Source of the DNA: Variovorax paradoxus
GTDB lineage: Bacteria; Pseudomonadota; Gammaproteobacteria; Burkholderiales; Burkholderiaceae_C
Direction of reading: 5' to 3'
Assembly (NCBI RefSeq): GCF_018614955.1
Contig: NZ_JAGGNV010000003.1
Span: 186,001-250,000 of the forward strand
DNA length: 64,000 nucleotides
Of this stretch, positions 13,209 through 60,565 are shown piece by piece; position 1 is the stretch's first letter; the number at the start of each line of letters is the position of its first letter. The notes under the pieces were generated by a model that was not told the DNA's origin, made no database searches, and saw only the letters and a list, made by a program, of their open reading frames with translations. The translations under genes and the position numbers were made by a program.

Positions 13209-13688
13209 ATGGCCATTGAAGGCGTCATGAAGGAAGGCTTCGTCACCACCACCTACGACTCGGTGGTGAACTGGGCCAAGACCGGATCACTGTGGCCGAT
13301 GACCTTTGGTCTGGCCTGCTGTGCCGTGGAAATGATGCATGCGGGTGCCGCGCGTTACGACATCGACCGCTTCGGCATGCTATTTCGCCCGAGCCCGCGC
13401 CAATCCGACCTGATGATCGTGGCCGGCACGCTGTGCAACAAGATGGCGCCGGCGCTGCGCAAGGTCTACGACCAGATGCCCGAGCCCCGCTGGGTGCTGT
13501 CGATGGGCTCGTGCGCCAACGGCGGCGGCTACTACCACTACAGCTACTCGGTGGTGCGTGGCTGCGACCGCATCGTGCCGGTCGACGTCTATGTGCCGGG
13601 CTGCCCGCCGACCGCCGAGGCGCTGCTCTACGGAATCATCCAACTCCAGCAGAAGATCCGCCGCACCAACACGATCGCGCGTGCCTGA
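13209..13688 (+). CDS. nuoB: NADH-quinone oxidoreductase subunit B
   Basis: A 159-residue peripheral-arm subunit that carries the terminal [4Fe-4S] cluster N2 next to the quinone site. The four ligands are visible: adjacent C37 and C38 ([10 protein letters not shown]), C102 (MGSCANGG) and C132 ([11 protein letters not shown]). The N terminus is short, as in other proteobacterial NuoB. It lies 15 bases after nuoA. Confidence 0.97.
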
Positions 13689-13701
13689 GAAGCGAAAGAC
13701 G

Positions 13702-14310
13702 ATGACCGACTTTGCCATTTCTCCCGAGGCATTGCAGACCCAGATCACCGAAACGCTCGGCCCCAAGGCCAAGAGCGTCACGCTCGCGCTCGGCGAAGTG
13801 ACGGTGGTGGTCGGTGCGGCCGACTATCTGGAAGCTGCGACCCTGCTGCGCGATGCGCCCGGCTGCCGCTTCGAGCAATTGATCGACCTTTGCGGCCTCG
13901 ACTACTCCGACTACCGCGAAGGCGAGTGGGAGGGCGAGCGCTTCTGCGTGGTGACGCACCTGCTTTCCGTGAGCCTCAACCAGCGCGTGCGCCTCAAGGT
14001 GTTCGTGCCGAACGAAGACCTGCCGGTGATCGATTCGCTGACCGGCATCTGGAACGCCGCCGGCTGGTTCGAACGCGAAGCCTTCGACCTCTACGGCATC
14101 GTGTTCGAAGGCCACGACGACCTGCGCCGAATCCTGACCGACTACGGCTTCATCGGCCACCCGTTCCGCAAGGACTTCCCGGTGTCCGGTCACGTCGAGA
14201 TGCGCTACGACGCGGAGCAGAAGCGCGTGATCTACCAGCCGGTTTCGATCGAGCCGCGCGAGATCACGCCGCGCGTGATTCGCGAAGACAACTACGGCGG
14301 ATTGCACTGA
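13702..14310 (+). CDS. nuoC: NADH-quinone oxidoreductase subunit C
   Basis: A 202-residue peripheral-arm subunit, separate from NuoD rather than fused as in E. coli. The 30-kDa subunit signature ERRAFDLYGI-like segment is present as [21 protein letters not shown], followed by the HPFRKDFP motif. I place the start at 13702 ([10 protein letters not shown]), 13 bases after the nuoB stop; the longer frame from 13558 runs inside nuoB. Confidence 0.95.
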
Positions 14311-14317
14311 AACCGAC

Positions 14318-15571
14318 ATGGCCGAAATCAAGAACTACACGCTGAACTTCGGACCCCAGCACCCCGCAGCGCACGGTGTGCTGCGCCTGGTGCTCGAGCT
14401 CGACGGTGAAGTCATCCAGCGCGCCGATCCGCACATCGGGCTCCTGCACCGCGCAACCGAGAAGCTCGCCGAAACGCGCACCTATATCCAGTCGCTGCCC
14501 TACATGGACCGGCTCGACTACGTCTCGATGATGAGCAACGAGCACGCGTACTGCCTCGCGATCGAGCGGCTCATGGGCCTCGACGTGCCCATCCGCGCAC
14601 AGTACATCCGCGTGATGTTCGACGAGATCACGCGCCTCCTGAACCACCTGCTGTGGCTGGGTGCGCACGGCCTGGACTGCGGTGCGATGAACATGCTCAT
14701 CTACTGCTTCCGCGAGCGCGAAGACCTGTTCGACATGTACGAGGCGGTCTCGGGCGCGCGGATGCACGCGGCCTACTATCGGCCTGGCGGCGTCTACCGC
14801 GACCTGCCGGACGCGATGCCGCAGTACAAGGTCAGCAAGATCAAGAACGCGAAGGCGATCGAGCGTCTCAACGAAAACCGCCGCGGCTCGCTGCTCGACT
14901 TCGTCGACGATTTCTGCAAGCGCTTCCCGAAGATGGTCGACGAGTACGAGACGCTCCTCACCGACAACCGCATCTGGAAGCAGCGCACCGTCGGCATCGG
15001 CGTGGTCACGCCCGAACGCGCGCTGAATCTCGGCTTCACCGGCCCGATGCTGCGCGGCTCGGGCGTCGAGTGGGATCTGCGCAAGAAGCAGCCCTACGAG
15101 GTCTACGACCGCATGGACTTCGACGTGCCGGTCGGCAAGACCGGCGACTGCTACGACCGCTACCTCGTGCGCGTCGAGGAAATGCGCCAGGCCAACCGCA
15201 TCATCCAGCAGTGCTCGGCCTGGCTGCGCGCCAACCCGGGCCCGGTGATCACCGACAACCACAAGGTCGCGGCGCCGGCGCGCGAATCGATGAAGGCCAA
15301 CATGGAGGAGCTGATCCACCATTTCAAGCTCTTCACCGAAGGCTTCCATGTGCCCGAAGGCGAGGCCTATGCCGCCGTCGAGCACCCCAAGGGCGAGTTC
15401 GGCATCTATCTCGTGAGCGATGGCGCCAACAAGCCCTACCGTCTGAAGATCCGCGCACCGGGCTTCCCGCATCTGGCGGCGCTCGACGAGATGGCGCGCG
15501 GCCACATGATTGCCGACGCGGTCGCGGTGATTGGCACCATGGACATCGTGTTCGGCGAGATCGACAGGTGA
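14318..15571 (+). CDS. nuoD: NADH-quinone oxidoreductase subunit D
   Basis: A 417-residue, 49-kDa-type subunit that with NuoB forms the quinone-binding chamber. It starts with the family pattern [20 protein letters not shown] and contains the [12 protein letters not shown] motif, both lining the quinone pocket, and ends with a conserved GEIDR. No extension or frameshift is apparent. Gap to nuoC is 7 bases. Confidence 0.97.
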
Positions 15572-47786: not shown

Positions 47787-48830
47787 CTACATCCGCAGCG
47801 CCTGCGCATAGCCCGTCATCTCGAGGTAGCCGCGGCCGACGCGTCGCCCGCTCGCGTCCTGCAGATCGCTCAGTCCTTCCCAGTAGACGGCACCGGTCGA
47901 ACCCCGGCTGTCGAGCTCCTGGTCGTCGAGCAGCGCCTGTACCCTGAAGGCGCCGGCCGGCGTCTGGATGCGCCATCGGATCGGGTAGGCCGCGCGCGTG
48001 CGCGGGCTGGTCCAGGTGCTTTCGGGGTCGAAGCGCAGTTCGTCGGAGCCGAACACGCGCAGCGTTCCGTCGGCGCTGCGCAGCGACCCGCCGAACCACA
48101 GGGCCGATCCGTCGCGCCGCCGGATGCGAAAGGCCATCAGCGCGCCGCCGTCGTCGAGGTTCATGCCGATCCAGTCCCAGCCCGCCGCGTCGGGATGCAG
48201 GTAGGCCTCGCTCCACTCGTGGTCGAGCCATGCCTTGCCTTGCACGTCGAAGCCGCGGCCCTGCAAGGTGAGCCGGCCCTGCGCCGCGAGCTGCGGTTCG
48301 CTGTAGTAGTAGCTGGCCTGTTCGGCCTCGGGCCCCTTGCGCGACAGGCCGTCCTTGCCTTGCAGCAGCACCGGCTGGGTGGGTGAGAAGCGCAGGTCGA
48401 GCCCGAAGCCTTCAGCCGGCAATCTGGCCGTATAGCCCCGGGCGTCGCGCTTCAGCGTCCAGTTGCGCAGCCGGACGTCGGTGTCCTCTTCGGCGGCCGA
48501 CGCCACGCCGAAGCCGGCGCGCGCGATGCGCTGGTCGTGCCAGAGCTTGCGGCCTTCGAGGTCGGTGAGGGCAGCGTGCGCGAAGATCAGCTGCCGCGCC
48601 GCGAAGTGCGAGCGCATCGACTGCGTCGCAACGACCCGCGAGCGGAAGAAGGTGAGCTGGAAGCCGAAGTCGCGCGCACCGGCCTGGGCGTGGCCCGTGA
48701 TGTACCACCACTCGGTGCGCAGATCCGGATGGCTGCCGAAGTCGCGCGGAAACTGCTGCATGCGCGGCGGCAGCGCCCAGGCCGCCGGCGCCGCGAGCGC
48801 CGACAGGAGCACTGCTCGGCGCGACAGCAT
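47787..48830 (-). CDS. AttH/CrtC-like lipocalin-domain exported protein
   Basis: A 347-residue protein with an N-terminal signal (SRRAVLLSALAAPAAWALP, arginine pair compatible with Tat). The body carries the conserved blocks of the AttH/carotenoid 1,2-hydratase-like lipocalin family: HPDLRTEWWYITGH, FFRSRV, FAHAALTDLEGRKLWHDQR and AWLDHEWSEAYLHPDAAGWDW. These form two consecutive beta-barrels. Family members are usually encoded beside an FtsX-type permease and an ATPase; here a matching permease lies about 9 kb away. Two bases separate it from the cysteine-synthase-like gene upstream. Carotenoid hydration is unlikely without carotenoid genes nearby. Confidence 0.82.
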   Translation of the reverse strand: MLSRRAVLLSALAAPAAWALPPRMQQFPRDFGSHPDLRTEWWYITGHAQAGARDFGFQLTFFRSRVVATQSMRSHFAARQLIFAHAALTDLEGRKLWHDQRIARAGFGVASAAEEDTDVRLRNWTLKRDARGYTARLPAEGFGLDLRFSPTQPVLLQGKDGLSRKGPEAEQASYYYSEPQLAAQGRLTLQGRGFDVQGKAWLDHEWSEAYLHPDAAGWDWIGMNLDDGGALMAFRIRRRDGSALWFGGSLRSADGTLRVFGSDELRFDPESTWTSPRTRAAYPIRWRIQTPAGAFRVQALLDDQELDSRGSTGAVYWEGLSDLQDASGRRVGRGYLEMTGYAQALRM

Positions 48831-48832
48831 GC

Positions 48833-49903
48833 TCAACTCGCCAGAAGTGCGTCGACGCGCCGTTGCGCCGCGCTGCAATCGCCGAAGGCGTTCGCCACCC
48901 ACGCCGCATCGTGGTAGCTCGGCAGGTAGCGCTCGCCCGCGTCGCACAGCAGCGAGAGGATCGAGCCTTGCCGCCCCGCCGCGCGCATCTCGTCGGCCAG
49001 CGCCAGCATGCCGATGAAGTTGGTGCCGGTCGACGGGCCGACCTTGCGGCCCAGCAGCGCCGAGAGCGCGCGCATCGCGGCCACCGAGTCGGTGTTCGGC
49101 ACTTCGATCATGCGGTCCACCAGCGAAGGGATGAAGCTGGCTTCCACGCGCGGCCGTCCGATGCCTTCGATGCGCGAGCCCGGCGCCGTGAGCGTCGCAT
49201 CGCCGGTCGCGTGGTAGGCCGCGAACACCGAGCCCTCGGGATCGACCACGCAGACCTGCGTGTCGTGGCAGCGGTAGCGCACATAGCGCCCGATGGTCGC
49301 GCTGGTGCCGCCGGTGCCGGCGCCGACCACGATCCACGCGGGCACCGGATGCCGCTCGTGGCCCATCTGCTGGAACATGCTCTCGGCGATGTTGTTGTTG
49401 CCGCGCCAGTCGGTCGCGCGCTCGGCGTAGGTGAACTGGTCCATGTAGTGGCCGCCCGCGCGCTCGGCCAGCGAGCGCGCTTCGTTGTAGACCTCCGCCG
49501 CGTGATCCACGAAATGGCACTGGCCGCCGTAGAAGGCGATCTGCGCGATCTTCTCGGGCGATGTGCTCTTCGGCATCACGGCGATGAAGGGCAGACCCAG
49601 AAGCCGCGCGAAGTAGGCCTCGCTCACCGCGGTCGATCCGCTCGAGGCCTCGACGACCGTGGTGCGCTCGCCGATCCAGCCGTTGCACAGCGCGTAGAGG
49701 AAGAGCGAACGCGCGAGCCGGTGCTTGAGGCTGCCGGTCGGGTGCGTCGATTCGTCCTTGAGATAGAGGTCGATGCCGTGCGCGGCGAAGGCCGGCAGCG
49801 GCAGCGGGATCAGGTGCGTGTCGGCGCTGCGCTGGTAGTCGGCCTCGATGCGGCGGATCGCGCTGCCGAGCCAGGGGCTGCCGGGTGGGGAGGCATGGGT
49901 CAC
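48833..49903 (-). CDS. PLP-dependent cysteine synthase/cystathionine beta-synthase family protein
   Basis: A 356-residue fold-type II PLP enzyme. The cofactor lysine is K60 in [11 protein letters not shown]. The substrate loop is [14 protein letters not shown], and the phosphate-binding loop is [12 protein letters not shown]. The N terminus and several loops differ from CysK/CysM, so it may use a different acceptor or act as a beta-replacing enzyme other than O-acetylserine sulfhydrylase. It is tightly coupled to the AttH-like gene (2-base gap) and follows the DipZ-like gene by 27 bases. A thiol-producing activity would fit the neighbourhood. Confidence 0.85.
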
Positions 49904-49930
49904 GCCGACGAGTCTACAAGCCCTGTGCGT

Positions 49931-51721
49931 TCAACCGAAGGTGAACGCATAGGCCTGCGCGCCGGCATCGAGGAATTCGATCTCGAACAGGCGCTCCTTC
50001 GCGGATGGCGACTGGCGAACCAGCTGGTAGAGCCGCTGCGCGTCGATCGTTCCGTTGCCCTGGGCGTCGATGTCGGACCCATGGTCCGAGAGCGGCGGCT
50101 TGCCGTCCACGAGCACCCTGAAGCGCACGGGCTTGCCGTCGGCCGAGGGACCGAGCACCAAGTGCAGATCGCGCGCATGGAAACGGTAGGCGATGCGGCC
50201 GTTGGCGCGGTTCGCGACCGCGCGCTCGCGCTCCACGGTCCAGTCGCCGGCGAGCGCCCATTGGTTCGTTCGCAGCGAAGCGGCAGCCTGGTAGGCGTTC
50301 GCGCGATCGTTCGCGATGCCGCCCGGCGAGGCGAAGCTGTGCGTGCGTTCGTAGCCCAGATAGGTTTCTCCCGACAAAGCGGGTGTCGAGCCCGGCGCGG
50401 CCTGGACGCCTTCGCCCTGCGGAGCGACCAGATCGGATGGAACATTGCGCCCAGCCTCGGCCAGCAGTTGCTGGATGATTCGTTCCAGTTTCTCGTACCG
50501 GTTCTCGCCGAACTGGTGATGGCGGATGCGCCCCTCGGCATCGATGAAATAGAACGCGGGCCAGGCCTGGTTGTCGAAGCCGCGCCAGATGGCGAAGTCG
50601 TTGTCGATGGCGACCGGGAAGTCGATGCGAAGGTCCTTGGTCGCCCGGCGCACGTTGGCAGGGCGCTTCTCGAAGGCGAACTCGGGCGCGTGCACGCCGA
50701 TGACCACCAGGCCCGCATCCTTGTACTTCTCCGCCCATGCGCGCAGGTAGGGCAGGGTGCGCAGGCAGTTGATGCACGAATAGGTCCAGAAGTCGACCAG
50801 CACCACCTTGCCGCGCAGGCCTTCGGTCGTCAACGGGGCGGAGTTGATCCACTCGGTCGCGCCGGCGAGTGAAGGAAAGATACCCTCGATGCCGAGCGTT
50901 CGCGCGGGTGCCGGTTCGCGGGCGGCTGCCGTCGGGATCAGGCCGGTTTCTTCGACGGAGACACTCGCATCGGCGCGCGGCGGCGTCGGCTTCTGGAAGC
51001 CGCTCTTTTCGACCAGCGCCTGTTCCAGCGCCGACGTGGTGCCGACCGAAAGCCGCGCGAGCAGGCCGGTGTCCAGGCCCAGCGCGATGGCGCCCACACC
51101 CACCAGCACCGCCGCGCCGGCAGCGCGCCGGATCCATTCGCCCGTGTGGAGCGATCCCTTCAAGGCCGCGAACACGCGCCCGCCGAAAAGCAGCGCTGCC
51201 GCCAGCGAGGTGCATGCGCCGGCGGCATAGGCCAAGAGCAGCAGCGAGGTGCCGACGCTGGCGCCGTTGAGTGCTGCGCCGGTGAGGATCAAGCCGAGGA
51301 TCGGACCGGCGCAGGGCGCCCAGAGCAGGCCAGTGCCCACGCCCAGCACCAGCGGCGAGAGAACCGATGGCCGTGCGGCAGACCCGTCAGCCTGGGCGTT
51401 GGAGAGCCGGATGCCGAGCGCGACCAGCGGCCTGCTCAGGCGGTGGGCCAGGCTCGGGAACAGCAGCGTGACGCCGAACACCGCCAGCAGCGCGATCGCT
51501 GCGTAGCGCCCGTACTGGTTGAGCTCGACCACCCAGCCGCCGCCCACCGCGGCTAGCGTGGCGATGGCGGCAAAGGCCAGCGCCATGCCGAAGAGAAGGG
51601 GCAGGCCGTGCGAGCGGAACGGCCGATCGGCGCGCGCGAACACGAAGGGCAGCACCGGCAGGATGCACGGGCTCAGGATGGTGAGCACGCCGCCGAGGTA
51701 GGCCACGATGAGGAGGAGCAT
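49931..51721 (-). CDS. DipZ-type fusion: CcdA-like membrane domain plus TlpA-like thioredoxin domain
   Basis: A 596-residue inner-membrane protein. Residues about 1-235 form a CcdA/DsbD-beta-like domain of six or more helices with its redox cysteines visible in LSPCILPVLPF and LLWAPCAGPILG. Residues about 280-425 are a periplasmic TlpA/AhpC-like thioredoxin domain with active site WTYSCINC. The C-terminal 170 residues are a beta-rich domain (HARDLHLVLGPSADGKPVRFRV) found in DipZ proteins. The protein should pass electrons from cytoplasmic thioredoxin to periplasmic targets. The thioredoxin domain closely resembles the stand-alone protein at 54820-55380. It follows the histidine kinase by 25 bases. 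Confidence 0.9.
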   Translation of the reverse strand: MLLLIVAYLGGVLTILSPCILPVLPFVFARADRPFRSHGLPLLFGMALAFAAIATLAAVGGGWVVELNQYGRYAAIALLAVFGVTLLFPSLAHRLSRPLVALGIRLSNAQADGSAARPSVLSPLVLGVGTGLLWAPCAGPILGLILTGAALNGASVGTSLLLLAYAAGACTSLAAALLFGGRVFAALKGSLHTGEWIRRAAGAAVLVGVGAIALGLDTGLLARLSVGTTSALEQALVEKSGFQKPTPPRADASVSVEETGLIPTAAAREPAPARTLGIEGIFPSLAGATEWINSAPLTTEGLRGKVVLVDFWTYSCINCLRTLPYLRAWAEKYKDAGLVVIGVHAPEFAFEKRPANVRRATKDLRIDFPVAIDNDFAIWRGFDNQAWPAFYFIDAEGRIRHHQFGENRYEKLERIIQQLLAEAGRNVPSDLVAPQGEGVQAAPGSTPALSGETYLGYERTHSFASPGGIANDRANAYQAAASLRTNQWALAGDWTVERERAVANRANGRIAYRFHARDLHLVLGPSADGKPVRFRVLVDGKPPLSDHGSDIDAQGNGTIDAQRLYQLVRQSPSAKERLFEIEFLDAGAQAYAFTFG

Positions 51722-51746
51722 GGTGTTTCTCGATGAGCGCGGGCGT

Positions 51747-53063
51747 TCAGGCCGCGCCGGGTTTGAACAGGGTCACGCGGGCCTCGAGCCCGCCTTCGCT
51801 GCGGTTCTGCAAACTGAGCTCCGCGCCCATCGCCATCGCGAGCTGGTGCGCGATGGCGAGTCCGAGGCCCGTACCGCCGGTGCTTCGGTTGCGCGAGCTT
51901 TCGACCCGGTAGAAGGGCTTGAGTACGGCTTCCAGCTCGTCGGGCGGGATGCCCGGCCCGTTGTCGAGCACCGCGATGACCAGCCGGTCCGCATCGGCCT
52001 GCACCCGCACGCGCACCTCGCTGCCGAACTTCAGCGCGTTGTCGACCAGGTTGACGAGGATCCGGCGCAGGGCATTGGGGCGCGTCACGATCGGCGCGTC
52101 GATGCGTCCCTCGAGCAGCACCTGCTGGCCGGAGTCCTCGTAGTCGCCGACCATGCTCTCGAGCAACGCGTCGGCATCGACGCGCAAGGGCGGCTCCGTG
52201 GCGCCATGCAACGTGCGCGCATAGGTGACGCCTTCCCTCACGAGCGCATTCATGGCGTCGAGGTCCTGCCGGAACTTCAGCTGGTCGCGCTCGTTGTCCA
52301 TCATCTCGGTGCGCAGCCGCATCCGGGTGATCGGCGTCTGCAGGTCGTGCGAGATCGCAGCCAGGATCTCCACGCGTTCGGCCATGTAGCCGGAGATGCG
52401 CCGCTGCATCGCGTTGAAGGCGCGTGCCGCGTGCGCCACCTCGGTGGGGCCTTCTTCCTCGAGGTTGCGGGCCTTCAGGTCGGGCCCGAGCTCGTCCGCT
52501 GCCGCGGCGAGCCGGGCCAGCGGGCGCGTGACGAGCCGCACCGCGAACCAGGCGCAGACGGCCAGCACCGCGAGCTGGACCGCGAGCACCCACATGACCC
52601 AGTCCGACACCGGCATGCCGACGCGTCTCGCGTCGACGATCACCGGGCTGCCGTCCGCCAGCTTCACCTGGATCCGAAGGCCTTCGGTCGGTTCGGCGAC
52701 CTGCGCCACCTTCACGACCTCGAAGGGATGCAGCGCATTGACGATGGCGGCGGCGAACTCCTGCGCCACCGGCGTCGCGGGCTCCGGGCCCGTGACGCTG
52801 CCGCCCAGCACGAAACGGTAGTTGCGCCGCTCCAGCCGGCCGAGCCAGCTCGCGCGCTCGGCGGCGGGCAGGCGATCCAGCAGGGCGATCGAGCTCGCGA
52901 TGTCGCGTTCGATGCCGCTCATCATCAGCTCGCGCAGCGCCATGCCGCGCTCATAGCGGATCGCCGCGAAGGTCAGCAGCTGCGCGATCGCGAGGCCGAC
53001 CACGATGATCAGCGTCACGCGGGAGAACAGCGAGCGGGGGACGAGGCGGTGCATGGTGGGCAT
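51747..53063 (-). CDS. Sensor histidine kinase, EnvZ/OmpR-partner type
   Basis: A 438-residue membrane sensor. Helix 1 is at about residues 15-33, a periplasmic domain covers about 34-160 and helix 2 about 163-183 (WVMWVLAVQLAVLAVCAWFAV), followed by a HAMP linker. The phosphoacceptor His is in ISHDLQTPITRMR. The ATPase domain has N, G1 and G2 boxes: NLVDNALKFG, DNGPGIPPDEL and GGTGLGLAIAHQ. The periplasmic domain has no obvious metal or cysteine motif. The likely partner regulator is encoded divergently beyond the Ohr gene. It heads a minus-strand series with dipZ, the cysteine-synthase-like gene and the AttH-like gene. Confidence 0.92.
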   Translation of the reverse strand: MPTMHRLVPRSLFSRVTLIIVVGLAIAQLLTFAAIRYERGMALRELMMSGIERDIASSIALLDRLPAAERASWLGRLERRNYRFVLGGSVTGPEPATPVAQEFAAAIVNALHPFEVVKVAQVAEPTEGLRIQVKLADGSPVIVDARRVGMPVSDWVMWVLAVQLAVLAVCAWFAVRLVTRPLARLAAAADELGPDLKARNLEEEGPTEVAHAARAFNAMQRRISGYMAERVEILAAISHDLQTPITRMRLRTEMMDNERDQLKFRQDLDAMNALVREGVTYARTLHGATEPPLRVDADALLESMVGDYEDSGQQVLLEGRIDAPIVTRPNALRRILVNLVDNALKFGSEVRVRVQADADRLVIAVLDNGPGIPPDELEAVLKPFYRVESSRNRSTGGTGLGLAIAHQLAMAMGAELSLQNRSEGGLEARVTLFKPGAA

Positions 53064-53161
53064 GGATCCGGTTATATGCCTGCGTTCACCCGAAATCGCT
53101 TTCGCGTGTATTGCAGTGTGTCGGGCAGCGAAGGGCGACATGAGATCCTTGGTGTGAGTGA

Positions 53162-53194
53162 CCCGGCCTGCCTGTTCGGCACGGACAGGCCGGG
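53162..53194 (-). terminator. Hairpin terminator after the Ohr/OsmC gene
   Basis: Arms CCCGGCCTG and CAGGCCGGG are perfect, and the inner bases extend the stem. It lies 16 bases past the ohr-type gene stop on the minus strand. A T run is lacking, so termination is likely but perhaps partial, allowing some read-through into the kinase gene. Confidence 0.55.
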
Positions 53195-53210
53195 TGAGTG
53201 GGAAGCCGAC

Positions 53211-53630
53211 TCAGACCAGGTTGATCTCGACGCCGATGTTGCCCCGTGTGGCCTTCGAATACGGGCAGGTCTGGTGCGCGGCATCCACCAGGGCCCGCGC
53301 GACCTCGTGCTCCACGCCCGGCAGGCTCACGTTGAGGCGGGCCTGGAGAAAGTAGGCGCCGTCCGTGGTGCCCAGGTCGACTTCGGCGTCGACGGCCGTG
53401 TCGGCCGGCAGCTTGATCTTCCTCTGGGCGGCCGCGAGCCCCATCGCGCCGATGAAGCAGGCCGACCAGCCGGCAGCGAACAACTGCTCGGGGTTGGTGC
53501 CGGTGCCTGCGGCGCCGGGCGAAGAGAGCTTGATGTCCAGGCGGCCGTCGGTGCTGCGGGACTCGCCGTCGCGACCGCCCGAGGAGGTGTGGGTCTTGCC
53601 GGTGTAGAGAACTTTTTCGATGCGGGTCAT
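53211..53630 (-). CDS. ohr: Organic hydroperoxide resistance protein, Ohr/OsmC family
   Basis: A 139-residue cytoplasmic thiol peroxidase. The two catalytic cysteines of the family are visible in GWSACFIGAMG (about residue 60) and QTCPYSKATRGN (about residue 124), with the LYTGKTHT N terminus and R in SGGRDG-SRS. Ohr reduces organic and lipid hydroperoxides and is recycled by lipoylated proteins. The start at 53630 follows AAGGA. The usual MarR-type regulator OhrR is not adjacent. Instead the gene lies between a histidine kinase and its probable response regulator, and a candidate regulator-binding site lies 106 bases upstream. Confidence 0.92.
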   Translation of the reverse strand: MTRIEKVLYTGKTHTSSGGRDGESRSTDGRLDIKLSSPGAAGTGTNPEQLFAAGWSACFIGAMGLAAAQRKIKLPADTAVDAEVDLGTTDGAYFLQARLNVSLPGVEHEVARALVDAAHQTCPYSKATRGNIGVEINLV

Positions 53631-53932
53631 GTGTATTTCCTTGGAGAATGGAGGGGGAGAACGCTTGCTTGTCGCCAACCGGAAAAGCTGACGGCGCGAT
53701 TGTTGGCGTCGAACACCTCGAAGACCGCGGACTCGGTATGCCTGTGTATCCGGGCTGTCTTTCACAACAGTAAATTTCACTGTCGTCGCCGGCATCGCTT
53801 TCCGGCACCCGGGCGCCGCGAAACACAATGTCGTGGCCCGCAGCGCCGGATACTTGGCCATACAAAGGAGTCGATTCCGGCGCAGGAGCGGACTACATTG
53901 CGCTTGCAACACCTGCTCGATGCCGCACTGCC
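53631..53932. promoter_or_regulatory. Divergent control region between ohr and the response regulator gene
   Basis: This 302-base gap contains no gene that I can support. It holds the GTAT direct-repeat site at 53736-53750 and an ACAGT-N7-ACTGT inverted repeat at 53767-53783. The remainder is ordinary GC-rich sequence. Both genes must be transcribed from it, in opposite directions. Confidence 0.6.
53736..53750. promoter_or_regulatory. Candidate response-regulator site 1 (GTATGCCTGTGTATC)
   Basis: Two GTAT half-sites lie in direct orientation 10 bp apart, the geometry used by OmpR/PhoB-type regulators. A copy differing at one base (GTATGCCTCTGTATC) lies at 55466-55480, upstream of the TlpA-like gene. 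A weaker version (ATATGCCTGCGTTC) is at 53074-53087, just before the kinase gene. Confidence 0.5.
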
Positions 53933-54673
53933 ATGACTCCCAAGACCTCCGACCACATCCTCATCGTCGACGACGATCGCGAGATCCGCGAACTGCTCAC
54001 CACCTACCTGGTCAAGAACGGCCTGCGCGTGGTCGCGGTGCCGACCGGCCGGCACATGCGCGTCGCGCTGGAGGAATCGGGCCCCTTCGACCTGATCATT
54101 CTCGATTTGATGTTGCCGGGCGAGGACGGGCTCACGCTGTGCCGCGACCTGCGCACGGGCAAGTACAAGGCCACGCCCATCCTGATGTTGACGGCGCGCA
54201 GCGAGGAGGCCGACCGGATCCTCGGCCTCGAGATGGGCGCCGACGATTACCTGGCCAAGCCCTTCTCCGCCCGGGAGCTGCTCGCGCGCATACGCGCCGT
54301 GATGCGCCGCACCCGGATGCTGCCTCCCAACATGCACTCGACGGAGTCGGCGAAGAAGCTGGCTTTCGGCGAATGGCACGTAGACACCACCGCGCGGCAC
54401 CTGCTCGACGCGAGCGGCACGATGGTCGCGCTGAGCGGCGCCGAATACCGGCTGCTGCGCATCTTTCTCGATCACCCGCAGAAGGTGCTCAGCCGCGACC
54501 AGCTGTTGAGCCTGACGCAGGGCCGGGAAGCGGAGCTCTTCGAGCGCTCGATCGACCTGCTCGTGAGCCGGCTGCGCCAGCGGCTGCGCGACGACGCGCG
54601 CGAGCCGAGGTACATCAAGACCGTGCGCAGCGAAGGCTACGTGTTCGCATCGGCGGTGGAGGCGGTCGACTGA
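53933..54673 (+). CDS. OmpR-family two-component response regulator
   Basis: A 246-residue regulator. The receiver domain has the acidic pair and phosphoacceptor in HILIVDDDREI and LIILDLMLPGEDG, and the conserved Lys in GADDYLAKPF. The C-terminal winged helix (about residues 145-240) includes LSGAEYRLLRIFLDHPQKVLSR-type sequence and ends RYIKTVRSEGYVF. I chose the ATG at 53933 (MTPKTSDH) because it begins the receiver fold. The gene is divergent from ohr and the kinase, an unusual split layout for a two-component pair. Confidence 0.92.
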   Translation: MTPKTSDHILIVDDDREIRELLTTYLVKNGLRVVAVPTGRHMRVALEESGPFDLIILDLMLPGEDGLTLCRDLRTGKYKATPILMLTARSEEADRILGLEMGADDYLAKPFSARELLARIRAVMRRTRMLPPNMHSTESAKKLAFGEWHVDTTARHLLDASGTMVALSGAEYRLLRIFLDHPQKVLSRDQLLSLTQGREAELFERSIDLLVSRLRQRLRDDAREPRYIKTVRSEGYVFASAVEAVD

Positions 54674-54692
54674 GCCGACCACACCGAGCCGG

Positions 54693-54818
54693 CTAGCTGC
54701 GGACGCGCTTTTCGGGCCCCGCGCGCTGACGGGCCGTGATGCAGTGGCAGCTCGTCGGATTGCGGATCTCGTGCGAGATGCCGCCCGCCAGGAAGAGCAG
54801 GGCAAGCCAGATCTTCAT
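54693..54818 (-). CDS. Possible 41-residue small exported protein
   Basis: A 41-codon ORF begins with an ATG one base after the stop of the TlpA-like gene and ends with TAG. CAGGAG-like sequence is present at the end of the upstream gene (AGGAGCC on the opposite strand is not usable), so initiation would depend on coupling. The product starts MKIWLALLFLAGG, a hydrophobic signal-like stretch, and then contains SCHC, a Cys-X-Cys pair. It then becomes basic. There is no family I recognise. It could be a chance ORF in high-GC DNA. Confidence 0.3.
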   Translation of the reverse strand: MKIWLALLFLAGGISHEIRNPTSCHCITARQRAGPEKRVRS

Positions 54819-54819
54819 C

Positions 54820-55380
54820 TCAGGAGCCCGCGGGCGACTGCTGCGCAAGAAGCGCCTGGATCTTCTTCTCGGTCTCGCCGTAGCGCCCCTCGCCGAAATG
54901 CGAGTAGACGACCTTTCCCTGTTTGTCGATCAGGTAGACGGCAGGCCAATACTGGTTGTTGAAAGCCTTCCAGGTCGCGTAGCTGTTGTCCTGGGCGACG
55001 GCGTGCTTGATCTGCAGTTTCTTGATGGCGTCCTGGACGTTCTTGGTCGATTTCTCGAACGCGAACTCCGGCGTGTGCACGCCCACCACGACCAGGCCCT
55101 GGTCCTTGTACTTCTCGTGCCATTCCTTGACGTAGGGCAGGTGGTTCAGGCAGTTGATGCAGGTGTAGGTCCAGAAGTCGATGAGGACCACCTTGCCGCG
55201 CAACTCTTCCATCTTCAGCGGCTGGGAGTTGAGCCAGGTGTCGATCTTCTGGAACTCCGGTGCCGAGCGGGTCGCGCCGGCAGCGGCGTCGCCGCCGAGC
55301 GGAGGCGCGGCGAAGGTGAGGGCGGCCACCGACGCTGCGGCGGCCACGGCGAGGGGAAGTGCGATGGATCGGATGTTCAT
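54820..55380 (-). CDS. TlpA-like periplasmic thioredoxin-family protein
   Basis: A 186-residue exported redox protein. A signal peptide (MNIRSIALPLAVAAAASVAALTFA) leads into a thioredoxin fold. The active site is WTYTCINC (CxxC at about residues 82-85), and a cis-proline-containing YWPAVYLID. It closely resembles the thioredoxin domain of the DipZ-like protein at 49931-51721 over more than 100 residues, so one probably arose from the other by duplication. It may be the soluble acceptor of electrons from that protein. The start at 55380 is chosen to begin the signal peptide. A GTAT direct-repeat site lies 86 bases upstream. Confidence 0.9.
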   Translation of the reverse strand: MNIRSIALPLAVAAAASVAALTFAAPPLGGDAAAGATRSAPEFQKIDTWLNSQPLKMEELRGKVVLIDFWTYTCINCLNHLPYVKEWHEKYKDQGLVVVGVHTPEFAFEKSTKNVQDAIKKLQIKHAVAQDNSYATWKAFNNQYWPAVYLIDKQGKVVYSHFGEGRYGETEKKIQALLAQQSPAGS

Positions 55381-55465
55381 GGTGATTTCCTTCGGGTGAG
55401 CGATGAGACTTGGCTTCGGAACGAACGGATTCTTGGCCACGTTCGGCCTCTCAAGTGCCCATCGC

Positions 55466-55480
55466 GTATGCCTCTGTATC
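55466..55480. promoter_or_regulatory. Candidate response-regulator site 2 (GTATGCCTCTGTATC)
   Basis: Same 15-base pattern as at 53736-53750 with one substitution, including the 10-bp GTAT spacing. It lies in the 194-base gap before the TlpA-like gene. A third GTATC at 55532-55536 is nearby. No gene or other structure is apparent in 55381-55574. Confidence 0.5.
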
Positions 55481-55574
55481 GGCGCGAGAAATCCACACAC
55501 TACGTTTCGCAGCCGGGCTTTTGTACCCCGTGTATCTGCCGACGCTCATGTGCAGGTACTTGCGGGACAGCACA

Positions 55575-56369
55575 CTAACCAGAGCCTGTCATCAGCTTGA
55601 TGCCGCCCAGGGCGATCAGCACCATGCCGAGCGCTGCAGCCAGACGGTCCCCGCGAGGCAGCAATTTCTCGAGCGCGACGGCGATCGAAAGCGCGGCGAC
55701 CCAGGCGAGGTTCATGACCCCGCCGACGAACAGCAAGGCCATCAACGCCCAGCAACAGCCCACGCAGAACAGGCCGTGCCGCGCCCCCATGACGAAAGCA
55801 CCATACGCGCCGGGGCGCCATTCTCCGAGCAGGAAGCCCAGCGGCGTTCGACAGCGCGAAAGACACATGCGCTTGAGGCGCGAGAACTGGTAGACGCCGG
55901 CGATCAGCAGCAGCGCGCCGGTCAGCAACGGCGACGTGCTGAGGATCATCGGGTCGATCCAGCCCGGGAGCTGAAGCGCCCACTGTGCGGCTGTGGCACC
56001 CGCGCTGAAGGCGAACCAGACTGTCAGATAGGCGGCGACGAAGCTGCGCGCCCGCGCCATGTCCCCGCTGGGCGCGCTCATGTTGACGAAAGTCAGGACC
56101 ATCGGCATGGCCGAGGGCAGCATCATCGCGGCCATCATGACCGCCCACATGGACCAGATGGCGAGCATGTTGGACGCGGTCCAGCTCGACGAGGCGGGCA
56201 TGGTCAGTTGCGCAAAAGGATGGCCCATGTCGATCGCGATCCAGGCCAGGAATGCCCAGGCCATCAAGGCGAGCGCGAGGATCCCGATCGCCCACCTCGG
56301 CTGCCGCGCAATGAGAGCGACAGTGCTTTGCGGCGGCCTGTCCGCCGAATCGCGCCTCTCCTGTGCCAT
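55575..56369 (-). CDS. DUF2182 family multi-spanning membrane protein
   Basis: A 264-residue protein with six or seven hydrophobic helices. The family carries conserved Met- and Trp-rich helices (WSMWAVMMAAMMLPSAMPMVLTF) and cysteine elements, seen here as RMCLSRCRTPLGF and HGLFCVGCCWALMALLF. These residues suggest metal or thiol chemistry in the membrane, but no function is established to my knowledge. The start at 56369 is supported by AGGAGG 7 bases upstream; a TTG at 56390 is less likely. It is divergent from the DUF1326 gene, a pairing I recall from other genomes. Confidence 0.85.
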   Translation of the reverse strand: MAQERRDSADRPPQSTVALIARQPRWAIGILALALMAWAFLAWIAIDMGHPFAQLTMPASSSWTASNMLAIWSMWAVMMAAMMLPSAMPMVLTFVNMSAPSGDMARARSFVAAYLTVWFAFSAGATAAQWALQLPGWIDPMILSTSPLLTGALLLIAGVYQFSRLKRMCLSRCRTPLGFLLGEWRPGAYGAFVMGARHGLFCVGCCWALMALLFVGGVMNLAWVAALSIAVALEKLLPRGDRLAAALGMVLIALGGIKLMTGSG

Positions 56370-56520
56370 CGATAGCCCTCCTGTGCGCAACCGCTATTCG
56401 ATCCAACACCTGTCCCGGACGATCCGCGCCTCGCGGCGGCCTGTCAACCCGGCCGCTTGCAGGCACCCGGCGATCGGCATAGCATTCTCTTGGCGGCGCC
56501 TTCTGTCGGGGAGAATCCTG

Positions 56521-57135
56521 ATGACCAACTGGCATGTAGACGGCGAGTACATGGAAACATGCAACTGCGCCTTTCTCTGTCCCTGCATCACCTCCAACCT
56601 CACGGCACGGCCGACCGAGGGTGATTGCAAGGCCGCGTTCGCGATGCGCATCGACAAGGGCGAGAAGGACGGCGTGAAGCTCGAGGGCCTGTCATTCATC
56701 GTGCTGATGCATTCGCCCGGCGCAATGGGCGACGGCAACATCACGGTCGGGCTGATCGTCGACGACCGTGCTTCGGATCCGCAGGCCGAGGCGATCGCTG
56801 CCATTGCGACAGGAGCGGCTGGCGGCCCGATGGCGGCGCTCGGGCCGCTCGTCGGCCGTGTCGCAGGCGTCGAACGGCGGCCGATTCACTTCGACGTCGA
56901 CGGGCTGAAGCGCACGGTGCGCGCCGGCGAGCTGGTCGACCAGGCGTGCGTGGGCATCGCGAGCGCGGTGGCGCCCGACCAGGCCATCGGCGTGGACAAC
57001 ACGGCCCACCCGGTGAACAGCCGGCTGTCGCTCGCCAAGGCGACGCGCAGCAGCATGCACGCGTTCGGCATCGACTGGGACGACGCGACCGGCACGCGCA
57101 ACGGACACTTCGCGCCGTTCTCGTGGGCCGGGTAG
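56521..57135 (+). CDS. DUF1326 family protein with N-terminal cysteine cluster
   Basis: A 204-residue protein without a signal peptide. The N terminus holds the family's cysteine motif METCNCAFLCPC, with another Cys at about residue 41 (EGDCKAAFA). These are candidate metal or iron-sulfur ligands or redox thiols. The rest is a beta-rich domain (LSFIVLMHSPGAMGDGNITVGLIVDD). Function is unknown. It is divergent from the DUF2182 gene, which suggests the two products work together. A weak promoter (TTGCAG, 17 bp, TAGCAT) lies at 56457-56485. Confidence 0.83.
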   Translation: MTNWHVDGEYMETCNCAFLCPCITSNLTARPTEGDCKAAFAMRIDKGEKDGVKLEGLSFIVLMHSPGAMGDGNITVGLIVDDRASDPQAEAIAAIATGAAGGPMAALGPLVGRVAGVERRPIHFDVDGLKRTVRAGELVDQACVGIASAVAPDQAIGVDNTAHPVNSRLSLAKATRSSMHAFGIDWDDATGTRNGHFAPFSWAG

Positions 57136-57171: not shown

Positions 57172-58050
57172 TTGATCAATTTCGGACGAAGATACTCAGC
57201 GGAACGGCTCCTGAAGAGTGCGGTCTTCACCAAGCTTTTCTTCCCGCTGTTCACACAGCGGGCGGCCGAAAAGTATCCGCAGTTCGTCGTCTTTTCCTCC
57301 GACCTGATCGGCCAGGGCATCAACCTGTACGGCTACTGGGAGCACGAGGAACTCGCGGCGCTGGCGCAGTGGCTGAAGGACCACCATGTCGTCGGGGGCG
57401 CGATGCTCGATGTGGGAGCGAACATCGGCAACCACAGCGTCTTTCTCGCCCGGCACTTCGACGTCGTCCACGCGGTGGAGCCTTCTCCTAGGACCTTCGG
57501 CGTGCTCCTGATGAATGCTTCGCTGGCTTCCAATATCCAGTGCCATCAGATCGCGGCGTCGGACAGGAACGGGTTGGCCGCATTCCGCCTGGAGACCGTG
57601 AACGTCGGGTACTCCCGCATCGTCGACGCCCCGCTGAGCGACAGCACCATCCAGGTGAGGTGCTGGAAGCTGGACGACTATTTCCAGGAAGTGAAGGACA
57701 TCCGCCTGGTCAAGATCGATGTCGAGGGGCACGAAGCGCAGGCCATCAAGGGCATGGAAGGAATCCTGCGCAAATGCTCGCCCGTCGTCGTGTTCGAACA
57801 GCACTTCAGCGCGTTCAAGGACGGCAAGTCGGAGGCGATCGAGCTGCTCAAGGAGAACGGCTACACGGAGTTCTACTTCGTCGACAGGGTTCCTTCGACG
57901 CAACGGGGAGGACGTACGTCCAAGCTCTGGTTCTTTCTCTGTTCGCTCCTCATGGGCTTCAGGCTTGTCGTCAAGAAGCGGACGGAGTTGGAGCCGGCCT
58001 TCTACGAGATGCTGATAGCCAAGAAGGCGGTCGTCACCAGTCTTCCTTGA
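57172..58050 (+). CDS. FkbM-family SAM-dependent methyltransferase
   Basis: A 292-residue methyltransferase. Motif I is MLDVGANIGNHSVFLAR (about residues 80-96), the acidic end of strand 2 is AVEPSPRTF, and the FkbM hallmark is RLVKIDVEGHEAQAIKGME. A hydrophobic stretch near the C terminus (LWFFLCSLLMGFRLVV) could associate with membrane. The only early start in frame is a TTG at 57172, with no strong ribosome-binding site, so the true start may differ. Codon use and GC appear lower than in neighbouring genes. FkbM enzymes methylate sugars or glycans, but no glycosyltransferase lies nearby. The 3' end overlaps the convergent permease gene by 17 bases. Confidence 0.8.
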   Translation: MINFGRRYSAERLLKSAVFTKLFFPLFTQRAAEKYPQFVVFSSDLIGQGINLYGYWEHEELAALAQWLKDHHVVGGAMLDVGANIGNHSVFLARHFDVVHAVEPSPRTFGVLLMNASLASNIQCHQIAASDRNGLAAFRLETVNVGYSRIVDAPLSDSTIQVRCWKLDDYFQEVKDIRLVKIDVEGHEAQAIKGMEGILRKCSPVVVFEQHFSAFKDGKSEAIELLKENGYTEFYFVDRVPSTQRGGRTSKLWFFLCSLLMGFRLVVKKRTELEPAFYEMLIAKKAVVTSLP

Positions 58051-60565
58051 CCGCCAGCACCGCATCGCGCGCGGCCGCCGCGCGGCCCGCCAGCCAGGCG
58101 GTGACGGTGCCGGCCGCCACCACCGCGGCGCACAGCGCGGCCAGGCGCGCCCACGGCACCAGCAGGTCCATGGTCCAGTGGAAGCTCTGCGGGTTGACCA
58201 CGTGCACCAGCACCACCGAGACCGCGAGCCCGAGCACCAGGCCGGCCAGCGCGCCGATGGCGGTCCACGCCGCGCCTTCGCCGGCCACCACCGCGAGCAC
58301 CTGGGCGCGCGTGAAGCCCAGGTGCGCGAGCAGCCCGAACTCCTTGCGCCGCGCCAGCACCTGCGCGCTGAAGCTGGCCGCGATGCCGAACAGGCCGATG
58401 CCGATCGCCACCGCCTGCAGCCAGTAGGTGACGGCGAAGCTGCGGTCGAAGATGCGCAGCGAGGTCGCGCGCAGCTGGCCGACGGAGGCGATCTCGATCG
58501 GCTCGGCGGCGGCGGCCGCGCGCACCGCCCGCTGCACCTGCGCCTCCGATGCATCCGGCGCAAGCCACAGCGAGATGTCGCTCACGCTGCGGTCGCCGGT
58601 CAGGCGCTCGAAGTCGCGCGCATCCATGGTGATGGCGCCGAACTGCCGCACGTAGTCGCGCCACACGCCGGCGACGAAGAAGCGCTGGCCGCCGCCGAAG
58701 GCCCTGGCCAGCGCTTCGAACTCCGTGCCCGGCTTCGCGCCGTAGAGCTCGACCATCGCCTCGCTGACATAGATGCGGATCTGTCCTGCGGGCACCGGCA
58801 GTGCTGCACCGAGCAAGGGCAATGAGCGCGATGCTTCATCCTCCATGTTGCGCGAGATCAGCGTGACCGCCGGCCGCGTCGGATCGAGCAGCAGCGCGCG
58901 CGTGCGCAGCGTGCCGGTGCGCGCCACGCCGGGCAACTGCGCGAGCGCCTGCACGAAGGCCGGCGTGAAGGCGGCCTGCTCGCTCTGGCTCGAGCTGCCG
59001 GCCGTGGCGCTGCGTACATAGAGATCGGCCGGCAGCACCACGTCGAGCCAGCGCGTGACCGACTCGCGAAAGCTTGCGACCATCACCGTGAGCGCCACCG
59101 CGAGGCTCAGGCTGGCGACCACGCCGCTGACGGCCACCGCCGCCGTGCCGCGCATGCGCCGGGCGCGCTCGATCGCGAGCATCGGCAGCACGCGGCGTTC
59201 GAACAGCGGTGCGAGCCGGTCGTAGAGCAGCGCGATCAGCCAGGGCAGGGCGGCGATGCCGCCGACCAGCAGGAAGCCCACCGAGAGATAGGCCGCGATC
59301 GGGATGCCGAAGACCGCCGGCGCCGTCGCCAGCCCCGCACCGGCCGCGATCAGCAGCAGCGCCAGATTGTGCGCGCCGCTTTGCGCAGGCGCGGCGCCCA
59401 GGCCCTTGAGCGTCTGCGCCTCGGGCAGCGCCTGGGCGGCGCGCGCGGGCCACCAGCCACCGACCGCCGCGGCAAGCAGGCCGAGGCCGCCGTAGAGCAG
59501 CGCGGCAGCCGAGCTCCAGCGCAAGGTCGGTGCCACGCCTTCGAAATAGCCGCCGCCAAGGTCGCCGCCCAGCACGCGCAGCGCGAAGGCCGCGAGCGCG
59601 GTGCCGAGCGCAATGCCGGCGACGCTGCCGATGAGGCCCAGCACCAGCGATTCGGCCAGCACCAGCCGCAACCGCTCGCGCGGCGTGAGGCCCAGCACGC
59701 CCAGCAAGGCGAACTGCTGCGCGCGCTTGGCGACGCTGAGCGCCAGCACCGAGAACACCAGGAAGGCGCCGGTGAACAAGGCCACCAGCGCGAGCACCGT
59801 GAGGTTCACGCGGTAGGCGCGCGAGAGATTGCTCACGCGCTCGGCCGCATCGCCAGGTTCGGCGATCCGGATGCCGGCGGGCCAGCCCTGCGACGCCTGC
59901 AGCGAACGGATGAAGGCCGCGCGGTCGATGCCGGGCGCGAGCCGCAGGTCGATGCGCGTGAGCTGGCCGGCACGGCCGAAGAGATCTTGCGCGGCGCCGA
60001 TGTCCATCACCGCCAGCGCGCTGCCGCCGGCCGCCACCTGGCCGGCCACGCGCAGTGCGTGCTGCTGCGCGCCGATGCGCAACTGCACCGTGGTCGCCGT
60101 TTCGCCGAGCGCGGTGCGCGCAGCGGCATTGAGGAACAGCGTGTCCGGCGCGAACAGCGCGAAGCGGTCGGCGTCCTTCGCCGGCTGCGGCATCAGCGCG
60201 GGCGCGATCGTGGGCAGCACCAGTGCATCGACGCCGATCACGCGCAGCGCGATGCGGCGCCCATCGCCCGCGAGCGCCACGGCCTGCGATTCGAGCACCG
60301 GGCTGGCCAGCGTCACCTGCGGATGCTGCGCCACGCGCGCGAACACGGCCTCGTCGAAGCCGCCTTGCGCCGCGCGCAGCTCCAGGTCCGGCTGGCCGTT
60401 GACCGAGCGCACGGCGCTCGCGAACTCGTCGAGCGCCGACGCGTTGATGAGTTGCACCGAGAAGGCCAGCGCCACGCCCAGCATCACCGCGAGCACGGCG
60501 GCCGCGTTGCGCCAGGGATGGTGGCGCAGTTCCTGCCAGGAAAAGGTACGAAGAAGCGCTCGCAT
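58034..60565 (-). CDS. FtsX/MacB-like ABC transporter permease (large, AttF/AttG-type)
   Basis: An 843-residue inner-membrane protein with two FtsX-type units, each of about four helices, and two large periplasmic domains (about residues 45-240 and 510-690). Helix groups are at about 15-37, 250-375, 420-490 and 720-830. Such permeases move lipids or lipoproteins or couple ATP hydrolysis to periplasmic work, and need a separate ATPase. None is adjacent: the upstream gene encodes a sigma factor. AttH-like lipocalins are the usual partner, and one lies at 47787-48830 on the same strand. The start at 60565 (MRALLRTFSW) is typical. Confidence 0.85.
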   Translation of the reverse strand: MRALLRTFSWQELRHHPWRNAAAVLAVMLGVALAFSVQLINASALDEFASAVRSVNGQPDLELRAAQGGFDEAVFARVAQHPQVTLASPVLESQAVALAGDGRRIALRVIGVDALVLPTIAPALMPQPAKDADRFALFAPDTLFLNAAARTALGETATTVQLRIGAQQHALRVAGQVAAGGSALAVMDIGAAQDLFGRAGQLTRIDLRLAPGIDRAAFIRSLQASQGWPAGIRIAEPGDAAERVSNLSRAYRVNLTVLALVALFTGAFLVFSVLALSVAKRAQQFALLGVLGLTPRERLRLVLAESLVLGLIGSVAGIALGTALAAFALRVLGGDLGGGYFEGVAPTLRWSSAAALLYGGLGLLAAAVGGWWPARAAQALPEAQTLKGLGAAPAQSGAHNLALLLIAAGAGLATAPAVFGIPIAAYLSVGFLLVGGIAALPWLIALLYDRLAPLFERRVLPMLAIERARRMRGTAAVAVSGVVASLSLAVALTVMVASFRESVTRWLDVVLPADLYVRSATAGSSSQSEQAAFTPAFVQALAQLPGVARTGTLRTRALLLDPTRPAVTLISRNMEDEASRSLPLLGAALPVPAGQIRIYVSEAMVELYGAKPGTEFEALARAFGGGQRFFVAGVWRDYVRQFGAITMDARDFERLTGDRSVSDISLWLAPDASEAQVQRAVRAAAAAEPIEIASVGQLRATSLRIFDRSFAVTYWLQAVAIGIGLFGIAASFSAQVLARRKEFGLLAHLGFTRAQVLAVVAGEGAAWTAIGALAGLVLGLAVSVVLVHVVNPQSFHWTMDLLVPWARLAALCAAVVAAGTVTAWLAGRAAAARDAVLAVKEDW

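Follow-up and report, generated by a model that had tools for sequence, protein, structure and literature searches.

Positions 47787 to 57135 of the window (the whole 64,000-nucleotide stretch of Variovorax paradoxus DNA analysed in this work, C59:186001-250000 of a 7.0 Mb genome) carry a set of thiol- and oxidant-related genes that the original prediction had joined into a single two-component-controlled defence island. With a probability of roughly 0.6, these genes represent two independent systems lying side by side: system A, the regulon of a sensor histidine kinase (HK) and a response regulator (RR), and system B, a possibly copper-linked pair of the proteins DUF2182 and DUF1326. The families named in the original prediction are all present and intact within the interval, after the corrections given below. 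The two gene sets are distributed separately among genomes, and only system A shares a conserved operator candidate.

System A is arranged around a divergent promoter. The gene for an Ohr-type organic hydroperoxide reductase (53211-53630, minus strand) begins a same-strand run, ohr-HK-dipZ-cds1-crtC, with intergenic gaps of 2-69 bases as calculated from the coordinates. The gene of the OmpR-type RR (53933-54673, plus strand; PF00072 and PF00486) is divergent from ohr, and tlpA (54820-55380, minus strand) is convergent with the RR gene. Proteins of the Ohr family have two active-site cysteines, and the window protein, a member of TIGR03561 (164.2 bits, cut-off 88.85), carries those of the SACF and TCPYS motifs. 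The HK (51747-53141, minus strand) contains two transmembrane segments and the Pfam domains HAMP, HisKA and HATPase_c. DipZ (49931-51721, minus strand) couples a putative CcdA/DsbD-like membrane part to a thioredoxin domain and a C-terminal Thioredoxin_10 domain (PF17991, 173.1 bits; Redoxin, 46.6 bits); the DsbD_TM match of the membrane part, at 20.4 bits, is below the cut-off of 27.1, and the protein has six hydrophobic segments in addition to its thioredoxin domain. The closest DipZ matches among named genomes are from Variovorax, mostly at 77 to 80% identity. The TlpA-like thioredoxin (Redoxin, 62.7 bits) has a CINC motif and a single N-terminal hydrophobic segment, and is 57.1% identical to the thioredoxin domain of DipZ over 140 aa. 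System B consists of DUF2182 (55575-56369, minus strand; PF09948, 225.1 bits, cut-off 28.7), a polytopic membrane protein as judged by its hydrophobic segments, and the divergently encoded DUF1326 (56521-57135, plus strand; PF07040, 176.6 bits, cut-off 25), which has five invariant cysteines.

Separate distribution of the two gene sets

Recurrence of system A was followed in 80 loci around dipZ, those of the best-matching DipZ relatives out of 568, each with flanks of at most 10 kb per side and some of them ended by the contig. Families were sought in these loci by profile or phmmer on reading frames of 60 aa or longer from all six frames, and a locus was taken as HK-positive when it held a kinase of at least 45% identity. 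The kinase is present in 21 of the 80 loci (12 from Variovorax or Methylibium, eight from Rhizobiales and one from Cupriavidus), and the RR was found in all 21. Neither DUF1326 nor DUF2182 was detected in any of the 80 loci. In the neighbourhood analysis suggested with the original prediction, HK, RR, DipZ, TlpA and Ohr recur together, and DUF2182 and DUF1326 do not recur with them.

That the whole island is one system, with DUF1326 and DUF2182 acting as thiol/oxidant effectors under the same regulator, is very unlikely on this and further evidence. The arrangement is kept in G473, where DUF1326 is 98% identical and lies about 4.7 kb from the kinase, and tlpA, encoded on the same strand, immediately follows DUF2182 after about 195 bases, both of which are in keeping with a joint system. 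However, a close DUF1326 homologue (at least 74% identity) is held by six of 101 genomes of the genus, the window's included, and G473 is the only one of the five relatives in which it is linked to the kinase; in G451 the two are on separate contigs, in G516 they are 832 kb apart, and G458 and G432 have no kinase match. In G508 the order crtC-cds1-dipZ-HK-ohr-RR-tlpA is intact, and a DUF2182 truncated to a 97-residue end is found at the same place. This position again recalls the joint arrangement, but the pair itself has decayed, as DUF1326 is gone from its place. The promoter of the pair also lacks the operator candidate described below: the DUF2182/DUF1326 intergenic region has a best score of -3.7, compared with 28.9 and 30.4 at the ohr/RR and tlpA promoters. 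When the surroundings of the pair were scored in a further four Variovorax genomes and on a Polaromonas plasmid, the best score was 11.8, more than 6 kb from the pair (L280), and no kinase or DipZ is annotated within the 16.6 kb of the Polaromonas plasmid examined. On motif evidence only, the predicted regulon excludes DUF1326 and DUF2182, an outcome that was named with the original prediction as one that would refute it. A joint system including DUF1326/DUF2182 and the Cds1-like enzyme was rejected on the evidence of distribution, operator and decay, and the two DUF proteins, which form a pair of their own elsewhere, are not retained as effectors of the core. Two independent systems remain the preferred reading.

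Recurrence of the system A genes

Cluster counts are lower bounds, since the gene caller misses genes. A separate tlpA gene is present in 11 of the 21 HK-positive loci. Ohr is found in 11 of these loci and in 2 of the 59 HK-negative loci (Fisher p=2e-6), and two clusters of alpha/beta hydrolases go with the kinase, the first in 10 of 21 against 0 of 59 loci (p=2e-7) and the second in 8 of 21 against 1 of 59 (p=5e-5), with relatedness ignored in all three tests. Across the genus, 79 of 101 genomes have a kinase match at E <= 1e-60, although in two the identity is only 43 and 51%. Because the core genes recur together and share a genus-conserved operator candidate, an envelope thiol/oxidant system under two-component control is likely, and to this extent the original prediction held. 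Two observations weigh against it. Ohr is absent from 10 of the 21 HK-positive loci, and the kinase is rare in Rhizobiales, where a Mesorhizobium kinase as query matched in 2 of 150 sampled genomes at E <= 1e-80; the kinase is therefore accessory in that order.

A different kinase, about 25-29% identical, is present in 30 of the 80 DipZ loci, mainly of Burkholderia-like bacteria and Pseudomonas, while MsrB occurs in 38 and MsrA in 31 of the 80. In L066, L078 and similar loci of these groups, the other kinase-regulator pair recurs with the MsrB and MsrA genes. In L271 (G508), LysR, short-chain dehydrogenase and tautomerase genes adjoin the island (13255-15276); L007, L008, L036, L041 and L079 likewise contain clusters of dehydrogenases and tautomerases, their likeness to the L271 genes being judged by eye.

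A candidate operator and the predicted regulon

A direct repeat, GTATGCCTnTGTATC, is common to the tlpA and ohr/RR promoters. The divergent ohr/RR promoter holds one perfect match, GTATGCCTGTGTATC (53736-53750, plus strand; matrix score 28.9), and a weaker second candidate with three mismatches (53849-53863, minus strand; score 22.4). Another perfect match, GTATGCCTCTGTATC, is located upstream of tlpA (55466-55480, plus strand; score 30.4), 86 bases from the start of the gene. In total, the window contains two perfect copies and three with three mismatches, compared with a mean of 1.45 matches in shuffles. The scoring matrix was trained on 24 distinct sites, excluding the window and its two nearest relatives, and the next scores in the window were 12.0, near the kinase start, and 9.3.

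The survey of other genomes covered 20 further Variovorax/Methylibium HK loci, of which L009 and L276 are the same contig, leaving 19 distinct. A copy at two mismatches or fewer is held by 18 of the 19, with 33 copies in total, and in 32 cases a gene for RR, Ohr, HK, TlpA or a hydrolase starts within 450 bases of the copy. The 59 HK-negative DipZ loci (1.2 Mb) contain three copies at the same threshold. Genome-wide, the repeat occurs four times without a mismatch, never with one and four times with two, whereas base composition predicts 0.013 perfect copies. On contig C79 a perfect copy is flanked by two alpha/beta hydrolase genes, one of which is separated from it by a 127-residue frame. These hydrolases match the two HK-linked clusters of other genomes at 54-73% and 36-40% identity, and this agreement of neighbourhood and motif is the strongest evidence for the predicted regulon of this regulator. 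The perfect copy on contig C36 adjoins a cupin gene. Both the C79 hydrolases and the C36 cupin begin like exported proteins, as judged by eye.

Two opposed operator copies, with 0 and 2 mismatches, are found beside the cupin gene (L450, 7354 and 7476; G000 C36). In G508, a hydrolase of an HK-linked cluster lies between tlpA and the truncated DUF2182 (L271, 11583-13182), with operator copies nearby.

Several points count against the repeat as an operator of this regulator. It was first picked by eye in the window, so that the two sites there cannot count as independent evidence. In L014, a short contig possibly hiding a kinase, two of the three HK-negative copies precede dipZ. Among the nine HK loci from other groups (eight from Rhizobiales and one from Cupriavidus), only three show the motif at two mismatches or fewer, these copies preceding dipZ/hydrolase, ohr and cupin, and no motif was found in the HK locus L067. 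A reversed-pattern control also gave four genome matches within two mismatches. The repeat could alternatively be the site of another regulator, or a promoter element merely common to the genes, which we consider improbable. A conserved stretch like ACACTACGTTTCA follows many of the sites and could be a promoter; against this, the sites occur across loci in step with this kinase and regulator, and elsewhere in the genome there are hardly any. Taken as an operator candidate of the RR, the repeat defines a predicted regulon that turns a loose list of thiol genes into a testable set, and adds to it two hydrolases and a cupin from outside the window.

Proposed working and signal of system A

The membrane kinase would sense an envelope signal, and the RR would bind the direct repeat and turn on ohr-HK-dipZ, its own gene and tlpA, with cds1 and crtC probably expressed by read-through in this small clade. 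Elsewhere in the genome, the RR would turn on the two alpha/beta hydrolases and the cupin. Members of the DipZ and TlpA families reduce periplasmic disulfides, and the Ohr family removes organic hydroperoxides. In the window system, DipZ would move electrons over the membrane, supplying both TlpA and its own thioredoxin domain for the reduction of periplasmic thiols, while Ohr would clear organic hydroperoxides.

The HK was aligned with 21 relatives; its periplasmic part, of about 120 residues, is free of cysteine, and a cysteine switch within the sensor is for this reason unlikely. An AlphaFold2 model of the HK reached a predicted local distance difference test (pLDDT) score of 73.2, and its best Foldseek match was the core of CpxA, with CusS and EnvZ below. 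The presence of CusS among these matches is consistent with copper, and not oxidants, as the signal; system A would then resemble DsbRS in sensing copper and inducing Dsb genes. The available passages of PMC10141476 describe DsbRS of P. aeruginosa as a copper sensor inducing dsbDEG. We nevertheless regard this as rather unlikely, as the Foldseek matches cover the common catalytic core, and the kinases beside DipZ in the Pseudomonas loci sampled are 25-28% identical to the window kinase and clustered with MsrB and MsrA. Furthermore, the neighbours of the four perfect operator copies include no recognised copper gene.

Distribution and sequence of the DUF1326/DUF2182 pair

DUF1326 and DUF2182 form a near-obligate and widespread pair. 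Their distribution was determined in a class sample of 185 genomes and a phylum sample of 249 genomes, some genomes being in both, the window's included. Within the class, the two families occupy exactly the same 16 genomes; 14 of these have at least one adjacent copy, and 17 of 22 DUF1326 places are adjacent to DUF2182, one of them to a partial gene. Within the phylum, DUF1326 is present in 28 genomes, all 28 of which also hold DUF2182, and 39 of 42 places are adjacent. The window genome itself holds three pairs. Plasmids from other phyla, those of Streptomyces, Nocardioides and Natrinema, also carry the pair, while on a Chroococcidiopsis plasmid the annotation shows no DUF2182 next to DUF1326. 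The closest plasmid pair is that of Polaromonas (75.5%), which has the same divergent layout amid insertion sequences. No DUF1326 relatives were found in viral contigs by two protein scans, nor by profile among the motif-scan contigs listed.

The cysteines of DUF1326 follow the pattern C-x-C-x3-C-x-C...C, and C14, C16, C20, C22 and C36 are invariant in 34 of 34 aligned sequences and in every row of a larger set; no hydrophobic or membrane segment was found in the protein. Among 32 aligned DUF2182 sequences, the invariant residues include W75, M78, M83, P89, K166, C173, C202, C206 and E234.

DUF2182 is present in 34 phylum genomes, two of them below the family cut-off, and in six of the phylum genomes it stands without DUF1326. 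In two of these six (G287 and G371) it directly follows a tyrosinase gene; the tyrosinase-linked loci are L201 (7860-10329) and L202 (2896-5205), with a tyrosinase that carries a DUF7868 domain. In a third (G329) it adjoins a DUF899 gene, and the remaining DUF1326-less members are divergent or weak. No tyrosinase is present among the ten window genes scanned, where the partner of DUF2182 is DUF1326 and not a copper enzyme.

Neighbours of the pair were represented by 192 scanned genes of 256 picked (104 and 88), the other 64 being left out by hand without a strict rule. Outside the dmdA setting described below and one lineage, no third conserved partner was seen among the commonest neighbour families listed. 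The lineage in question comprises seven Rhizobium-like pair loci with genes for a CDP-alcohol transferase and a flavin adenine dinucleotide (FAD) protein.

Copper and sulfur readings of the pair

The DUF2182 family PF09948 is now named 'PpoB2, Copper chaperone' in Pfam. According to the passages available of PMC2855505, the tyrosinase of Marinomonas mediterranea reportedly receives its copper from PpoB2 (COG5486), which is the only member of the DUF2182 family with a reported role found in the literature; none was found for DUF1326. Given this family role and the methionine/cysteine motif, the best reading of the pair is a putative membrane Cu(I) carrier with a cytosolic five-cysteine acceptor. 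DUF2182, as a methionine- and cysteine-rich membrane protein, would exchange copper with DUF1326, its cytosolic partner. Against copper, no copper protein family was present among the 25 most frequent families neighbouring the pair in either of two sets (of 137 and 68 families), and no solved structure matched the pair proteins with confidence; a single-sequence model of DUF1326 (pLDDT 37.6) was unusable. The genomic setting beside dmdA, the gene of the dimethylsulfoniopropionate (DMSP) demethylase, is also as suggestive of sulfur metabolism as of copper.

DmdA scores above its cut-off in 10 of the 249 phylum genomes, and DUF1326 lies nearby in eight of the ten, at 68 to 1,684 bases from the demethylase gene. 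These eight genomes belong to a single family, roseobacter-like by inference, and their dmdA loci contain DinB in six, an AcuI-like gene in seven and a GntR regulator in six. In the dmdA locus examined, DmdA and AcuI both score above their cut-offs. In G108, of the window's class, DUF1326 adjoins a DmdA-like gene (373.6 bits, cut-off 410), with DUF2182 29 kb away. On a Marinovum plasmid the pair lies by DmdA with SBP56 nearby, and the annotation calls both genes 'involved in DMSP breakdown'. Loci with the pair beside dmdA, often with acuI, are L223, L224, L232, L234, L237, L241-L243 and L210. The passages on DMSP taken from PMC10746254 and PMC10936201 make no mention of the pair, and none of the terms sought for it was found in PMC3338564.

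The pair may instead serve small sulfur compounds, by binding, transport or oxidation of methanethiol or another volatile thiol, and not copper delivery as such. This is possible, though less probable than not by a clear distance. The closeness of DUF1326 to the demethylase gene in eight of the ten genomes, within 1.7 kb and with DinB, AcuI-like and GntR genes, speaks for it, as does the placement in G108 and on the Marinovum plasmid. In addition, 11 of the 13 genomes with long-form SBP56 hold DUF1326 (hypergeometric p=3e-10, relatedness not corrected). However, all eight demethylase cases come from one family; of the 28 DUF1326 genomes, 20 are without DmdA above the cut-off, 17 without long-form SBP56 and 14 without both; the window genome has neither; and PpoB2 and the tyrosinase neighbours point to copper. 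SBP56 methanethiol oxidase was also considered as the universal client of the pair and rejected, being found in only 11 of the 28 DUF1326 genomes and not in that of the window. The copper and thiol readings do not conflict, as the part of PMC5739008 consulted reports SBP56 as a copper enzyme.

More broadly, the pair could tentatively be seen as a general metal-handling unit, comprising a membrane Cu(I) carrier and a new cytosolic copper acceptor, that extends from Pseudomonadota to Actinomycetota and haloarchaea, is partly plasmid-borne, and is an overlooked component of DMSP demethylation in roseobacters; we hold this to be doubtful in its full extent. The place in the dmdA operon and the tie to a copper-chaperone family together provide two concrete hypotheses for the uncharacterised DUF1326-DUF2182 pair.

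The Cds1-like enzyme, CrtC and flanking genes

The last two genes of the ohr run are local additions. The enzyme at 48833-49903 (minus strand), called 'cysteine-synthase-like' in the original prediction, is a pyridoxal phosphate enzyme whose best match is the Cds1 L-cysteine desulfhydrase model NF052478, at 568.6 bits and nearly full length, compared with 137.7 bits for the best cysteine synthase model. As the score falls below the equivalog cut-off of 600, the enzyme is labelled Cds1-like and not Cds1. Two bases after cds1, and last in the run, is the gene of a CrtC/lipocalin protein (47787-48830, minus strand; PF07143, 202.5 bits; PF17186, 145.7 bits), which the original prediction did not list. 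Of the 101 genus genomes, 62 have Cds1 and 56 of these also have the kinase. The two lie less than 20 kb apart on one contig in only three of the 56 (G000, G473 and G508), distance being undefined across contigs. No Cds1 or CrtC was detected by profile or phmmer in any of the 80 DipZ loci, and crtC accompanies cds1 in L270 and L271. Cds1 was rejected as part of the core system on these counts, contrary to its inclusion in the original prediction.

Beyond DUF1326, an FkbM methyltransferase gene (57172-58050) converges with a gene for an FtsX-like permease (58034-60565) and overlaps its end, the permease being recognised by eye.

Comparison with known systems

Among the first literature matches listed for DipZ or Ohr with a histidine kinase and response regulator, system A was not described. 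The dsbDEG genes encode a DsbD-type electron carrier and its thioredoxin-like envelope partners. DsbRS of P. aeruginosa, reported in the accessible passages of PMC10141476 to induce dsbDEG, is likewise a two-component pair set over such genes. System A differs in adding Ohr, the alpha/beta hydrolases, the cupin and the operator candidate, DsbRS being compared by description only. The MsrB-DipZ-MsrA loci of Burkholderia-like bacteria and Pseudomonas similarly have a kinase and regulator next to dipZ, but the kinase is another one (about 25-29% identity), and methionine sulfoxide reductases are present where system A has Ohr.

For system B, the known relative is PpoB2 of Marinomonas mediterranea, after which PF09948, the family of the window DUF2182, is named. 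The order of tyrosinase and DUF2182 in L201 and L202 is that reported for ppoB1-ppoB2 of Marinomonas in the excerpts of PMC2855505. PpoB2 is encoded with a tyrosinase, whereas the window DUF2182 is paired with DUF1326, a comparison made at the level of the family.

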